64,000 nucleotides of DNA, from the NCBI GenBank assembly GCA_964059195.1, contig CAXKWD010000011.1, forward strand, positions 35,082,066 through 35,146,065, in the 5' to 3' direction. The position numbers were made by a program, and so were the translations under genes. Positions 36,030 to 54,000 of the stretch are shown here, piece after piece; position 1 is the stretch's first letter, and each line of letters begins with the position of its first letter. The notes beneath the pieces are model-generated. The model was not told the DNA's origin. It made no database searches and was given only the letters and a program-made list of their open reading frames with translations. Origin of the DNA: Ectobius pallidus. Its lineage: Eukaryota > Arthropoda > Insecta > Blattodea > Ectobiidae.

Positions 36030-36092
36030 TGAGATGAGTGGAAATAACAATGGCAATGGAAAACCACCTGAACAGCCACACCGTCCTCTTGG
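36030..36092 (+). CDS. Micro-exon 1 (63 nt)
   Basis: Acceptor TTTTTATTTCAG, donor CTTGG|GTGAGT. It reads EMSGNNNGNGKPPEQPHRPL with two trailing bases. The ATG at 36,034-36,036 is a candidate start codon if the upstream exon is untranslated. It is Asn/Gly-rich, unlike later units, and matches micro-exon 16 best in its GNN core. Confidence 0.7.
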
Positions 36093-39000
36093 GTGAGTTA
36101 TAGACACATAATCTATAATTCCTTTCATTCGTTGTTTTCCGTGTTGTTCGCCACATAAGTAAGCTATCAAAATATGTGTTACTAAATGCAGTTTGAAAAC
36201 CAGAGAGTGTTAAGTAATTAATTAGTTTGATGTTTTTAGTTTCGTTTTAAATTTTAACTCATGAGGCATGATCTCATAGATCTCACAAGGATTTTGGGAG
36301 AAGGGAGATTGTTCAAAAAATGTCTATTGTTTAGAGAAAGTGAAGAAAAACTATATGGAGTGCGGGCCAATAGGAGAGTGAGGAAGTGGATCAGGCGGAT
36401 GGAGATTTCTGATTGGTCAGGAAGGAAAACTGAAATGAAAAGCACTAATGTGATGTGTAAACTGACCTTTTCTCAGCCAGGAACCAGTCATCTACCAGAT
36501 CCCCTGGGAATGAAGAGATGTTTACATCAAGAAGGTAGACCGCACTGTAAAGGGAAGATGCAATGACAATGACTGTATCATTCAGACAATTCTGCAGTGG
36601 CCCAGATCTGTTTTGAAACTGGCCACAGGATCCAATTTCATCAACTCAAGATCCCAAGAGATACAGATACCACTGGGGTGGTATTGGAACAGAAGCCTAA
36701 GAAATCTAGATTCAAGACCAGATATTCATTATGAATTGTGGTCTATAGCTTAACCAGGCCTGGAGACATTGCCTCTCATTTCCGAATAGGTCATTGGTGG
36801 TGAAAAGTACCATTTAATTATTACATTATTACAAGTTATTTAATTTTTTCTTCCCAACAAATGAAAGCTCTCTATCTATATGTTCCACTTTCTTGTTGGC
36901 CTCCCATTCCACCTAGTCTCAGTTCGATCCCGGTCCAGGTCGATTTCTTTTATGTGTGCATAAATGTGACAAGCCCATGTCAGTAGATTTACTGCCATGT
37001 AAAATACTCCTGCGGGACAAAATTCTGGCACACCGGGGACGGTCACAGGCCTAAGTTGCAGTACGTCTCCGCTGTTAAATAACCATATATCAACCAACCA
37101 ATCCACCTAGACTCTACTTGTCTCTTGCAGTATATCACAGACCTGTTTATAATCGGCTCAGTTTTCTCAAAAGATGTCTGTGGACAAACATATTTAGAAA
37201 TTAGTTTCTGGAGGGTCCTGAACTGATTGACCATAAAATACTGATATCTTCCTTTCCTGAGTGACAAAAAACGTTGATTTTTTGTTGTTGAAATAATGCT
37301 TCAAAATCCTGATATTTTGGGGAAGGTTTGGATCCCCAGGACCCACCCCCCTTCAATACGTCCTTGCCTGTGGAGCAAGCAGTGGGAAGTGCGGAATTAA
37401 TCCTTCTACTTATCCATTTGGAATCCTGAGAAACAATTATTCTTTCTCAACACTGGAAAAGCCTTAAGTCACACAACCTAGGTACTCTTAATATAATACT
37501 TTCTTCTTCACACATAAGACAACCTGCTCGCTGTTACACAACAGTGAACAACCGTTACACTGAATTGCTACTCCCACTGTCTTTTGAAGTTGCTGACTGT
37601 TTGAATGCTAGTCTACATCACTACATAGAAAGTTCAACCCATATTTTGAGTACTGGTATTCTTTTTAAATTAGTATGAAGAACAATGGAATGGTAATTTC
37701 TAGCATAAAGAATAATGAGCACCTATTTTGAGCATCTTATAAGTTACTTTGGCTTATGGAAATGGAAGGTCCTGGTCTCATCTGTGATATTTTTGCAATC
37801 CCCTGGACCTGGGGAGTCGGCACCTATGCATGTGATATCTTTTATAAATTAATTATTCAAAATAATCTAAATAAGCTAGTAAGCATAACCTTCTATAAAA
37901 TATGGTCATGACATAGTCTTACAAGAATTGCTGACATTTTGCATTCAAATTTATTTTTTGTTTCAGTGCACAAGGGGATGTGAACGTTAAACCTTCTACT
38001 GGGTGAGTTTCTTTTTAACTTACAGTACTGTCTGCCTGAATGGACATAGTGTTTTGTAATAATTATTGGCAATTTTACAGTCAAATTTGTTTTGATTTCA
38101 GTGAAGTAAATGCAAAAAGGGACGGAAGTGCTTCAGTTTCAAACCAGATACGTCATCCTTCAAGGTGAGATTCTTTTCAGCTTACCAACTGCATGAATGG
38201 CCATAGTGTCTTGTAATAATTATTGGCAATTTGGCATATTTAAAATTGAATTTATTTTTGTTTCATTCAATTGACTGCACAAAGGGATGTGCAAACATTT
38301 TGTTCTTTTCGGTGAGTGTCTTTTTTACTTACTAACTGCCTGAGAGTAACAATTATTGGCATTTTTGTAATCTAAGTATGTATTTCGGTTTCAGTCAAGC
38401 AAATGCACAAAGGCAAACATTTCGTCCTTTTGGATGAATTTCTTTTTAACTTACCAACTGTCTGAATGGACATAGTGTTTTGTAATAATTATTGGCATTT
38501 TTAAGTCAAACGTATTTTGGTTTCAGTCAAATGAGTTCCCAAAGGGATGTGAGTGAGCAAACATTTCGTCCTTTTCGGTGAACAGCTTGTAAATAAAAAT
38601 TACTGGTACTTTTGTTATCAAATTTATTTTGGTTTCAGTAATGTGAGTGCCAATCCAACTGGGCAAACACTTCCTCCTCCTGGGTGAGTGTCTTTTTTTC
38701 TTACTGGCTGCTTGAACTGAAAAATAGTTTGTACTATGAAGAACAACCTATGCCTGTTTTGAGTGTCTTTTCTTAAGTTACTACCTGCCTTATAGGAATG
38801 TCAGGTTCTAGTGCAAGGAATAATGAACAAATGTTTCAAATAACGTACTAGCACAAAATACCTTGTTAGGTGATGCAGATTTGGTGACACACTAATCCAC
38901 ATGTTGGAACATTGATTGTATTGACTGAACCTAGTCCAGTGAAACTCTTTTAATTACCTAGATCAAGTCTGCAATAAAAGGAGCCTGGTTTGAGTCCAGC

Positions 39001-51000: not shown

Positions 51001-54000
51001 GCGGGAGGCTTTGTAATTGGGGGAAGAAATTAAAATAATGCTGGAAGAAATTTAACTTTTGAGGCTTTTTGCTGTGAGGAGAAGTTAATAGGATTGGATT
51101 TTGGAGGGAAGTAGGATTAAGTATGGAAGACATAGAAAAATAAGAGATCTGGTCAAACTGTACAAATAAAAGTTCTTTGAGACCCTAAAAGGTAACTAAA
51201 ACAGAATGGGGAAGGGAGAAATGTGCAGATTGCTGTGCTAAACCTGGAAGGGAGGGCGGGATATGCAATAGAGAAAGATTAATTAATCTATTTCCTAGAT
51301 TAAACTTACAATACAAGTCTATGTAAACATTTTAACACTGGTCAAAGGAAATAATATAAGATTTGAAGCTTTCACGGCACTGATTACTTAGGATGGCTTC
51401 TTGGGTTATCAGAAGTATCAACATGATAAGTTTCGAACTTTCGGTCATCTTAATTCTGTGGCCTTCCTCAGGAATGTCTGTGTAGAGAAAGCATATGCAT
51501 GATGAATATTGAAATCTCATTGGCTGGCACTGCAGCCAATCAGAAGTCAGGTAGAAAAATTTTGCTGTGTCCTCAAATGGACCGATTATGCTATGCTGTC
51601 GGAGGTAGTCAATACTGTCGGTCACTGGTGGCCTACAAAATTTTTCTTTTTTAAAATAATAATATTAATAATAATAATAACAATAACAACAACAACTTTT
51701 AAAAAATGGCCTTTCAAAAAACTGAATTATTTTACATGTGCATTTAAATATAGATGTATTGGAGTTTTTTTGTAATAGCTATAAAAGAACAAAAATGCAT
51801 GTTTGATCAAATCTAACGCATGAGATATGGCATGACATCCATACAAGCAAGTGATGCAGGGTTAATGAAATATTCTATTGTACTAAATACATAAATGGCC
51901 TTGTAGGCTATGAGTTCTCTTTGTGTGTGTTGCACTAGAGCAATAACAAGCATCCATCTAAGCTTAGGTCTGAAGATATCAAATTGTTATGGAAATCACA
52001 CAAAAATTTAGAGCAATGGATGGCATTATAATTATTATAAAATCTGCTGGACTCATGAGTAATGAAAAAAGAATTTTTTGTTTCTTTGTTATTTGCTTTC
52101 CCTGTTATATATCAACCCGATAATTGAGGACCGTTTTGAAAAAAAAAAAAAAACTCAATATGTGCCATTGGTTGTGTTGACTTTTCTTATGTTCTTTTTT
52201 CACCATCCTAAAGATCTCATTTCAAAACACCTAAAACCATTAAAAAACGAATTTGGCAAAAATGGAGATGTTGAGTTTTGTCAAAATGGTCCTCAATAAA
52301 TGAATAAATTAAATTCTTATTAACATAACTAGACATGATAATGAACTCTTGACATGTTATTATGTGAAAGGTTGATTGAGACTGTGAAAGATTTGGAGGG
52401 CCTGACCCCATATACCGTATGATATTCTGTGGGCCCCTTGGCCTGGGGAGTCAGCGTCTTTGCATGTGATATAATTTAAGATATATGTTTTCTGTGATAA
52501 GTAATTAAAATATTTCTAGAACATTACCGTGCATTACTTTTATGACATAGCATATTGTCTTGTAATACTTTCTGATCTTTGTGAAGTAAAATGCATTTTT
52601 GTTTCAGTATCATGACTGCACAGGAGAATGGAAATAACGCACCTTTTGCACAACCAAATCCTTCTTCTGGGTGAGTTATAACTAGAGAATTCAGAAATTG
52701 TTTCATGTGTTGTTTTCTGTGGTTATATAGCACATAAGCCTGCTATCCAAACAGATTCAGTGTTTAATACCAGACAGTGTTATAGAGGGTTCATATGAAC
52801 ATTAATGCAAACTTACAGAGGTTGCTCTGGGATGTTTGCTAAAGATTTTGATATACTAAACCCGTGGCGCAGGTGGGGCATTGCTTTTTAACCTTTTCAC
52901 TGCTACAGCAATATATATGCATCAGCGCACATCACTGCTGGCCATGCCATTGAAACAATGCTTTTTCTGGGGGTACTCGAGGGTATGTAGGAGAAACTCA
53001 TTTCCACAATTTTGAAATCTGAAGAAATTTGTGCCAAATAGAATAATGAAAGTGGTTATATCCGTTGTTTCCATTAAAGTAGCTATTTTTAGTGTTTGTT
53101 ATCTATAGACCCTACCATGATTTTTGAGAGGTGAGGCCTGACATTAACTCTGTGATCAGCAGCGTTACAATGGTAACCATGACTATGTTGCCGATGTTAC
53201 TGGCTCAACATTACGATTTACTCAGGAGTTTATTGTATCCTTCTGATTAGAGAACTAAAATCATGTACCGTACCTTTATGTGTTATATGAACTGATTTTG
53301 AATATAAAGGACTACAAGTTGTGTTCCCTTATGTGTTTGTGAAAGGTGCAAGAAAACTTGTGAGCATATCATAGTGTTGTGAATAAAATATTTTATCTCC
53401 ACGTGATTGTAACAGACAAGTACACAAGAAAGAAAGTTTTCTTCCAGAAACAAACTACACAGCATTCAGTCCTCCCTGATAAAACATAAGACAATCACAA
53501 CACATGTCCCAATCCGAGATTTTCTGCATGAATGCCACCACGGTTTTCCTTGTGAACTATGCGTAATTTTTACTCTGTCATTTGGCACTTCTCCACTCTG
53601 AAATTTTCATTCTTAATGACAATAATATAGATAACATTTTCATATCTTAAAATTAGTATTTCATTGCTGGTAAGAATAATTATTTTTGCAATAATCACTG
53701 CAAAATGTAGGGTGAAAGAACAAAAACTGAGTAGATGGAGTAAAAGCATGATTTTTAACCTTTAAATTAAGACTAGCCTTGATTTCATACAAAAAACATG
53801 TTTGGAGAATATTAATAATTTTTAGAGAGAATTTCTCATTTAAACCAAACACTTATTAAATGATTTTTCTTTTTTGGGTGTTTCTTTGTTTGTGTAGGTG
53901 TTACACAAGCCTAACTACTCAACTGCATGATTAAAACAAAGATTATTTTTGCACTTTGAACAGAAAATCAAAATACTAGCATTGCCATTACCATATTCCC

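Follow-up and report, generated by a model that had tools for sequence, protein, structure and literature searches.

Two neighbouring predicted genes of Ectobius pallidus, hereafter referred to as gene A and gene B, probably acquired their arrays of micro-exons by repeated duplication of a start-codon exon, the copies serving as in-frame cassettes that would lengthen a disordered arm carried on a predicted coiled-coil tail. Gene A lies in the 64,000-nucleotide stretch of DNA that was analysed (hereafter, the window). The first-pass annotation of the window had described a single gene containing an array of micro-exons, a reading that is partly supported here. Gene B and the divergence of the exons between the two genes lay outside its view, and it had reported neither the 5′ element nor the broken units described below.

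The micro-exon array of gene A

An nhmmer search of the whole window, with a model built from 14 units, identified 16 units on the plus strand between positions 36,030 and 52,670 (E 5.7e-8 to 5.7e-28; runner-up, E 0.45). At least 16 had been claimed in this interval, and the profile search sets the number at exactly 16, as no further unit was found in the window below E 0.45. With a threshold of E 0.01, none was found in the 40 kb preceding the window or in contig positions 35,226,066–35,266,065, and ten order-2 Markov shuffles searched with the unit model gave no match better than E 0.7, so that the array lies far outside chance expectation. Leave-one-out models recovered 16/16 units with 30 to 81 bits, the top background match having 8.3 bits. 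The features of gene A are as follows, U01 to U16 each resting on the profile and leave-one-out searches.

31560..31763 (+): P1, first copy of a predicted 5′ noncoding exon/promoter; ACGC/GTATGT donor after 31763
33054..33129 (+): P2, second copy of the predicted 5′ noncoding exon; ACGC/GTAAGT donor after 33129
36030..36092 (+): U01, predicted start-codon micro-exon, MSGNNNGNGKPPEQPHRPL
37967..38002 (+): U02, 36 nt
38102..38164 (+): U03
38267..38311 (+): U04, acceptor lost (TTTCAT), open frame
38395..38433 (+): U05, donor lost (ATGAAT), open frame
38527..38577 (+): U06, weak donor (GTGAAC)
38639..38683 (+): U07, 45 nt
41125..41184 (+): U08, 60 nt
41433..41486 (+): U09, weak acceptor (CATAAG)
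43418..43480 (+): U10; flanks 94% identical to those of gene B unit B20
43795..43857 (+): U11; also from gene B comparison
45214..45276 (+): U12; gene B unit B23 identical
45631..45693 (+): U13; also from gene B comparison
46064..46126 (+): U14; also from gene B comparison
46340..46402 (+): U15; a similar gene B unit lacks an acceptor
52608..52670 (+): U16, final unit
54633..54792 (+): C1, first exon of the tail, entered in phase 2 and left in phase 0; gene B counterpart
56078..56299 (+): C2, predicted coiled-coil exon; AlphaFold2, gene B
57183..57317 (+): C3, predicted coiled-coil exon; gene B
61081..61246 (+): C4, predicted coiled-coil exon; AlphaFold2, gene B
62131..62306 (+): C5, exon; weak gene B counterpart

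As the first-pass annotation had described, the units are symmetric and 36–63 nt long; every length is a multiple of three, and phase 2-2 applies to 16/16. Their common frame contains no stop in 283 codons, the other frames having 16/299 and 15/283. The donor, acceptor context and reading that had been proposed as common to all units hold for only part of the array. The donor is exactly GTGAGT or GTAAGT in 12/16 units, the exceptions being U03 and U09 (both GTGAGA), U06 (GTGAAC) and U05 (ATGAAT). Fourteen acceptors are TTTCAG (13) or TTTTAG (1), whereas U04 has TTTCAT and U09 has CATAAG without a pyrimidine tract. The PMSAQ/GQPFLPF reading fits U11–U15 best; a number of the units before them show greater divergence or have become shorter. 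Thus, the splice sites are clean in 12 units, doubtful in two (weak in U06 and U09) and broken in two, U04 lacking an acceptor and U05 a donor, with the frame open in both.

All possible unit–unit junction codons, in gene A and in gene B, are sense codons, so that every ordered subset of units stays open; as had been suggested, any subset could in principle be skipped without frame loss. The pooled pairwise dN/dS, obtained from 8 of the 16 gene A units, was 0.93, indicating that the amino acid sequence of the units is weakly constrained, and of the 23 exon gaps seen when gene A was aligned with itself, 8 had a length not divisible by three. Fourteen units account for ~813 of the 1,672 known coding bases, about half.

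Gene B and the predicted 5′ end

Gene B is a second tandem copy, ~40 kb downstream of gene A on contig 11 of the 2.12-Gb host genome. Both an acceptor and a donor accompany 26 of its 28 profile matches. The lengths of these 26 units are all multiples of three, their frames are open (0 stops in 463 codons), and 26/26 donors are GTGAGT or GTAAGT. One gene B unit, which resembles U15, has no acceptor. Several units are identical or almost identical to one another, and a three-exon block of ~1.5 kb recurs with a 1,526-nt period, seen twice, at up to 97.5% identity. This repeat pattern indicates that gene B grew partly through duplication of the three-exon block.

The first-pass annotation had considered that the units might belong to a repeat family present at unrelated loci. 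In the genome search, the unit probe gave at least 11 matches, the tail protein probe at least eight and the U01 probe at least two, all on contig 11 at the gene A/B locus, and the P element gave at least four, all at the same locus; among the matches listed for these four probes, none lay at an unrelated locus. Likewise, among the matches listed, the C-terminal exons matched genes A and B only, and no third gene copy was found. A unit-like piece at contig 11:35,149,738 (13.7 bits) was set aside, as it has no acceptor under the rule used.

The P element is doubled upstream of the array, P1 and P2 sharing 85% identity across 99 aligned columns. Its donor and an in-frame TAG are kept in 4/4 copies found, so that no in-frame ATG would precede that of U01. 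The sequence thus predicts that unit 1, whose gene B counterpart is 94% identical, carries the start codon. The codon homologous to the U01 ATG is ATG in 9/16 gene A and 7/26 gene B units, and GTG in 2 and 8 further units, respectively. This one homologous codon, together with the predicted 5′ exon, suggests that the array units are likely to be copies of an ancestral start-codon exon; the low number of gene B units with ATG at this codon (7/26) counts against such an origin. The initial 40 residues, counted from the predicted U01 start, contained no hydrophobic stretch (maximum 11-residue mean, –0.25). As for a secretion leader starting from any of the nine ATG-bearing gene A units, the top 11-residue mean hydropathy of 1.33 was judged not leader-like.

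In the reading that we favour, the start-codon exon would have been duplicated repeatedly to form the front parts of gene A (16 units) and gene B (26 units), and each micro-exon would consequently be an in-frame cassette, predicted to lengthen a disordered arm rich in Pro, Gly, Gln and Asn. Transcription would start at the doubled 5′ noncoding exon, which would be spliced to unit 1, and translation at the unit 1 ATG; most units would be included and some skipped. We also entertain, tentatively, a self-copying version of the cassette, in which any ATG-bearing unit joined to the 5′ exon could start translation. One promoter would then yield a ladder of N-terminal arms differing in length and composition, and the two genes would form a repeat-number system that evolves fast and is subject to diversifying selection.

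The predicted coiled-coil tail and its divergence

Downstream, the reading frame of the units continues into five exons, C1–C5, comprising 286 codons without a stop. AlphaFold2 placed helices at residues 2–43 and 52–73 of C2 (mean pLDDT 87) and a single helix at residues 2–54 of C4 (mean pLDDT 97), and the tail sequence has a periodic signal at 3.5. The tail is therefore predicted to be helical and to form a coiled coil, in agreement with the earlier description of the C-terminus. The proteins might oligomerise through it, in which case the number of units would set arm length and valency.

Comparison of genes A and B over C1–C4 gave a dN of 0.235 and a dS of 0.168, against 0.108 for aligned introns. 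The pN was 0.20, compared with 0.109 in the 100-nt flanks (Fisher, 5e-6). Nonsynonymous sites of C1–C4 (20%) thus diverge more between the two genes than do adjoining intron sites (11%). The tail may have undergone adaptive change. The tail dN/dS of 1.39 is not significant (bootstrap pN/pS 0.90–2.19; Fisher p 0.26), and positive selection was not adopted for C1–C4 from dN/dS alone. Synonymous sites of C1–C4 likewise tend to diverge more than introns (p 0.07), and the explanation may simply be a faster rate of change in exons. Five pooled A–B unit pairs showed no significant excess over their flanks (p 0.16).

The two genes differ in the lengths of C1–C3 by 33, 30 and 24 nt, all multiples of three. 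They differ so much in C5, where the counterpart is weak, that the reading of this exon is less sure. Gene A likely continues past C5; open frames and stretches conserved between A and B lie beyond it, none was assigned as an exon, and the 3′ end of the gene was not found.

Alternative readings and known micro-exon genes

The strongest rival, to which we give a substantial chance though somewhat less than even, is a constitutive repeat protein in which no intact unit is ever left out and a fixed repeat number is all that distinguishes the genes. The clean sites of 12/16 gene A units and the regular splice sites of gene B (26/28 matches; 26/26 donors) speak for it. Against it, with U04 and U05 broken and U06 and U09 weak, some units must be left out, and very short exons are in general prone to skipping.

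This same tendency, together with the symmetry of all units and their sense junctions, would suit a combinatorial generator, as in the schistosome micro-exon genes (MEGs), in which the subset of units differs per molecule and variety is itself the function. We regard this as doubtful: the predicted start has no hydrophobic leader, which gives no sign that the product faces an opponent, and identical or near-identical gene B units add little variety. Dscam-like choice of one unit per molecule would account for homologous exons in tandem but is very improbable, since the frame is kept when several units are joined and nothing enforces exclusive choice; moreover, a simple test for docking sequences, a minus-strand self-comparison of 30,000–57,500, yielded 16 rows with E ≤ 1, none of which overlapped a unit. 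The strongest rows of that comparison were transposon-like inverted repeats. Decayed or never-spliced repeat debris would fit the four weak or broken gene A units and the gene B unit lacking an acceptor, but is the least probable reading, given that the 283 codons of one gene and the 463 of the other are free of stops and that all lengths are multiples of three, with A/B introns ~10% diverged.

The first-pass annotation had recognised no homologue, and we likewise found only weak matches in Pfam and NCBIfam, all below cut-off, so that the predicted gene A and gene B proteins match no family above these cut-offs. Matches of the predicted proteins to PDB were weak only; searches of up to 5.8 billion proteins, and an Rfam search of the window at gathering scores, gave no match. 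In the partial texts returned by a literature search, no publication naming the gene was found. Golgin GM130, considered for the tail from its layout only, was dropped because the Pfam scan (E up to 1) listed no golgin model.

In caseins, collagens and PEVK regions, too, successive small symmetric exons encode disordered or repetitive sequence. These have another exon phase and are not known to have a tail of gene A's kind, and gene A gave no sequence match in the libraries searched. A likeness to the schistosome MEGs and to many-exon insect genes had been pointed out earlier; it holds for the layout, whereas some of the defining features tested for each were not seen in gene A. According to the portions of PMC9168663 consulted, aphid bicycle genes have many small internal exons, nearly all in phase 2, and diverge rapidly in protein sequence, and the megacycle gene has over 100 micro-exons. 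Gene A likewise has many small exons and fast protein divergence; in the model examined, 13 units and C1 are in phase 2 and C2–C4 in phase 0. The bicycle gene-structure classifier (cut-off 0.72) gave 2.1e-12 for the partial model and 0.157 for the units plus C1, the model being incomplete and U04 and U05 dropped. No CYC-like spacing was found using a loose C-Y-C pattern set by the analyst (6 cysteines in 556 residues). Unlike these genes, gene A shows no hydrophobic leader where translation is predicted to begin and has a predicted coiled-coil tail in phase-0 exons. MEG exons, in the portions of PMC5825161 consulted, are 6–36 bp long and make up ~80% of the coding region, and the products are almost always secreted or membrane-anchored. 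Gene A shares short symmetric exons that could in principle be skipped without frame loss, but its units are 36–63 nt (one being 36), and 14 of them cover ~813/1,672 known coding bases. No leader is seen from the putative start codon.

Under the start-exon duplication that we favour, with all units in one frame, nothing would restrict the gain, loss or skipping of repeat units in the proteins. The two predicted genes clearly exemplify a protein region growing through the copying of whole micro-exons, and adjacent sister genes display both the birth of units (97.5% identical three-exon blocks) and their death (acceptors and donors lost). As the units of genes A and B still resemble each other, the origin of many-exon genes such as the bicycle genes and MEGs becomes testable.

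Micro-exon array and tail exons of gene A

The predicted gene A contains 16 homologous micro-exon units (U01–U16) on the + strand at window positions 36,030–52,670, in agreement with the first-pass annotation, which had claimed at least 16. All of them were recovered in a window search with an nhmmer model built from 14 units (U04 and U05 were left out), which gave no further match below E 0.45, and the best E value in ten Markov shuffles of the window was no better than 0.7. Leave-one-out models still recovered 16/16 units at 30–81 bits, against a background of at most 8.3 bits. 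The unit lengths, which are in order 63, 36, 63, 45, 39, 51, 45, 60 and 54 nt followed by seven of 63 nt, are multiples of three in every case. The shared frame (one base ahead of the first codon) has no stop in 283 codons, whereas the other two have 16 stops in 299 codons and 15 in 283, and each of them is closed in 11 of the 16 units. None of 5,000 shuffles of the unit letters left all units open.

The same annotation had assigned one common donor to all units. This holds for 12 of the 16. Both a consensus-like acceptor and a consensus-like donor are present in U01–U03, U07, U08 and U10–U16 (12 units). In the remaining four, the U04 acceptor has CAT instead of CAG, the U05 donor AT instead of GT, the U06 donor reads GTGAAC, and the U09 acceptor is without a pyrimidine tract. 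As the frames of these four units are still open, the damage suggests recent loss. The 16 units are composed of 13.8% P, 10.6% A, 9.9% Q, 9.2% N and 8.8% G, a composition from which the encoded arm is likely to be disordered.

The introns between the units (38,760–46,760) carry repeat families of 58 nt (17 copies) and 54 nt (15 copies), the starts of which resemble the sequence immediately downstream of the unit donors, as though the intron on the donor side had itself been multiplied. An inverted repeat directly ahead of U08 (40,560–41,096; 204-nt arms, 88%) is presumably mariner-like. The U15–U16 intron houses a 2.1-kb element (47,911–50,028) with perfect 36-nt terminal inverted repeats starting CACAGTGG, flanked on both sides by the 5-nt repeat GGTTG; we take its ends to resemble Transib, and it had no match in the 80 kb containing gene B, the tandem paralogue described below. 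Reverse transcriptase fragments (Pfam RVT_1) lie at 2,323–2,646, above the family cut-off, and at 63,227–64,000, slightly under it. The transposon-like readings in the window are reminiscent of cockroach genomes. The whole window contains 45 occurrences of AGGCCTA or its complement, compared with about four expected from composition.

Downstream of the array are five predicted tail exons (window positions):

C1: 54,633–54,792, + strand, tail exon, joins in frame to U16
C2: 56,078–56,299, + strand, tail exon, AlphaFold2 helices
C3: 57,183–57,317, + strand, tail exon
C4: 61,081–61,246, + strand, tail exon, AlphaFold2 helix
C5: 62,131–62,306, + strand, tail exon

These exons continue the U16 frame over 286 codons, which bears out the earlier proposal that the units join in frame to a C-terminus. 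Tail residues 15–235 have a high content of E, K, Q and L (G and P, 1.4% each), and their hydrophobic positions are periodic at 3.5 residues with a power of 6.9, as compared with 2.6 at 3.0 and 1.0 at 3.6. Run on single sequences, AlphaFold2 gave long helices for C2 (mean pLDDT 87) and C4 (mean pLDDT 97). The tail is thus a predicted coiled coil. The approximately 270 bases that follow C5 in gene A (62,338–62,611) are absent from gene B and are probably an insertion.

A tandem paralogue at the same locus

Gene B was found in the 80 kb downstream of the window on the same contig (contig 11, whose coordinates are used here; the window occupies 35,082,066–35,146,065). Its 5′ elements lie at 35,153,109 and 35,154,619, and its array of 26 units spans 35,159,741–35,181,581. 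C1–C4 each have a counterpart; that of C5 is weak (36% over 44 residues, E 0.005). The profile gave 28 matches above 13 bits, and a script rule that ignored frame and only limited length to 24–99 nt recognised both splice sites in 26 of these; a U15-like unit at 35,179,256 and a weak piece were set aside for having no acceptor. The weak piece (35,149,738–35,149,804; 13.7 bits, E 0.002) lies between the gene A tail and the gene B 5′ element. All 26 units are multiples of three. Their shared frame is free of stops across 463 codons, versus 31 stops (489 codons) and 23 stops (463 codons) for the other two frames, and a stop appears in no unit–unit junction codon nor in any junction to C1.

One gene B unit type is present six times. 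Of the five intervals between copies, two measure 1,526 nt, and 1,457 nt of sequence around copy 4 matches that around copy 5 at 97.5% identity, which indicates that this array grew partly by copying groups of exons. Between the genes, U12 and the gene B unit B23 are identical over 107 nt (window 45,184–45,290 and contig 35,177,877–35,177,983) within 2.4 kb of 89% identity, while U13 and B24 have flanks 92% alike and exons only 73% alike; these contrasts make gene conversion or exon replacement likely.

In the 2.12-Gb assembly, a 107-nt U12 probe had at least 11 matches (11/11 candidates): six fall within the window and the other five within the gene B array, which lies on this contig in the same orientation. 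The 286-residue tail probe gave at least eight matches at E ≤ 0.001 among 42 candidates (five gene A, three gene B), and U01 with its flanks at least two, one in each gene; these counts are lower bounds. The 40 kb ahead of the window and 35,226,066–35,266,065 contained no unit at E 0.01 and, for the tail exons, only one 12-residue match (E 0.07).

A proposed start exon and divergence of the two genes

The sequence at window 31,560–31,790 has at least four genome matches, two preceding each array. All four copies keep the donor ACGC|GTAAGT or ACGC|GTATGT, and joining any of them to unit 1 places an in-frame TAG six or seven codons ahead of the ATG. From this conservation we infer a doubled noncoding 5′ exon, with translation beginning in U01. 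The codon homologous to the U01 ATG is ATG in 9/16 gene A and 7/26 gene B units (GTG in two and eight, respectively), and on the strength of these ATG codons we propose that the array descends from a start exon. The reverse origin, an internal methionine exon turned into a start exon, is also conceivable.

Pooled pairwise dN/dS was 0.93 among the eight 63-nt units used (U01 and U10–U16; the other eight were left out) and 0.66 for U11–U15, a sign of weak constraint on the residues of the units and firm constraint on the frame. In local alignments of gene A duplicates, which overlap so that the counts are not independent, gaps were multiples of three in 15/23 cases in exons versus 34/157 in introns, and exons were 67% and introns 78% alike.

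Over 219 codons of C1–C4 (C5, alignable only poorly, was left out), genes A and B differ with dN 0.235, dS 0.168 and dN/dS 1.39; the bootstrap pN/pS was 0.90–2.19, pN did not exceed pS in 7.7% of resamples, and pN did not differ significantly from pS (Fisher p = 0.26). The nonsynonymous difference of 0.20 exceeded both that of aligned introns (0.100, 3,000 sites, p = 4e-10), a value biased low because alignable stretches alone were counted, and that of the 100-nt flanks of these same exons (0.109, 790 sites, p = 5e-6), which are free of alignability selection. As synonymous sites tend above introns too (p = 0.07), part of the excess may be generally faster exon change. For the five of 16 units tried as A–B pairs (equal length, flanks above 80% identity), pN 0.118, pS 0.098 and flanks 0.087 were not significantly different (p = 0.16). 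U01 is 94% identical between the genes, with three residue changes.

Relatives and a proposed role for the array

As in the first-pass annotation, no homologue was recognised: 5.8 billion proteins, in which this animal group is perhaps poorly represented, gave no match at E ≤ 10 (two queries) or E ≤ 1 (one), and Pfam, NCBIfam and PDB, which possibly include few of its proteins, gave only weak ones. Since the libraries may be poor in this group, the absence of relatives is weak evidence. The nearest known layouts are those of aphid bicycle genes and schistosome micro-exon genes (MEGs); the likeness drawn earlier stands for layout. It does not extend to membership, tests of which fail on defining features of both groups as described in PMC9168663 (bicycle genes) and PMC5825161 (MEGs).

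The array most likely encodes an expandable protein arm. Each full-length unit would add 21 residues of a Pro/Gly/Gln/Asn-rich, likely flexible chain, and the arm would sit on a helical tail, which probably forms oligomers. As all units start and end in phase 2 and no stop arises at the junctions, duplication, loss and skipping of units would all be tolerated.
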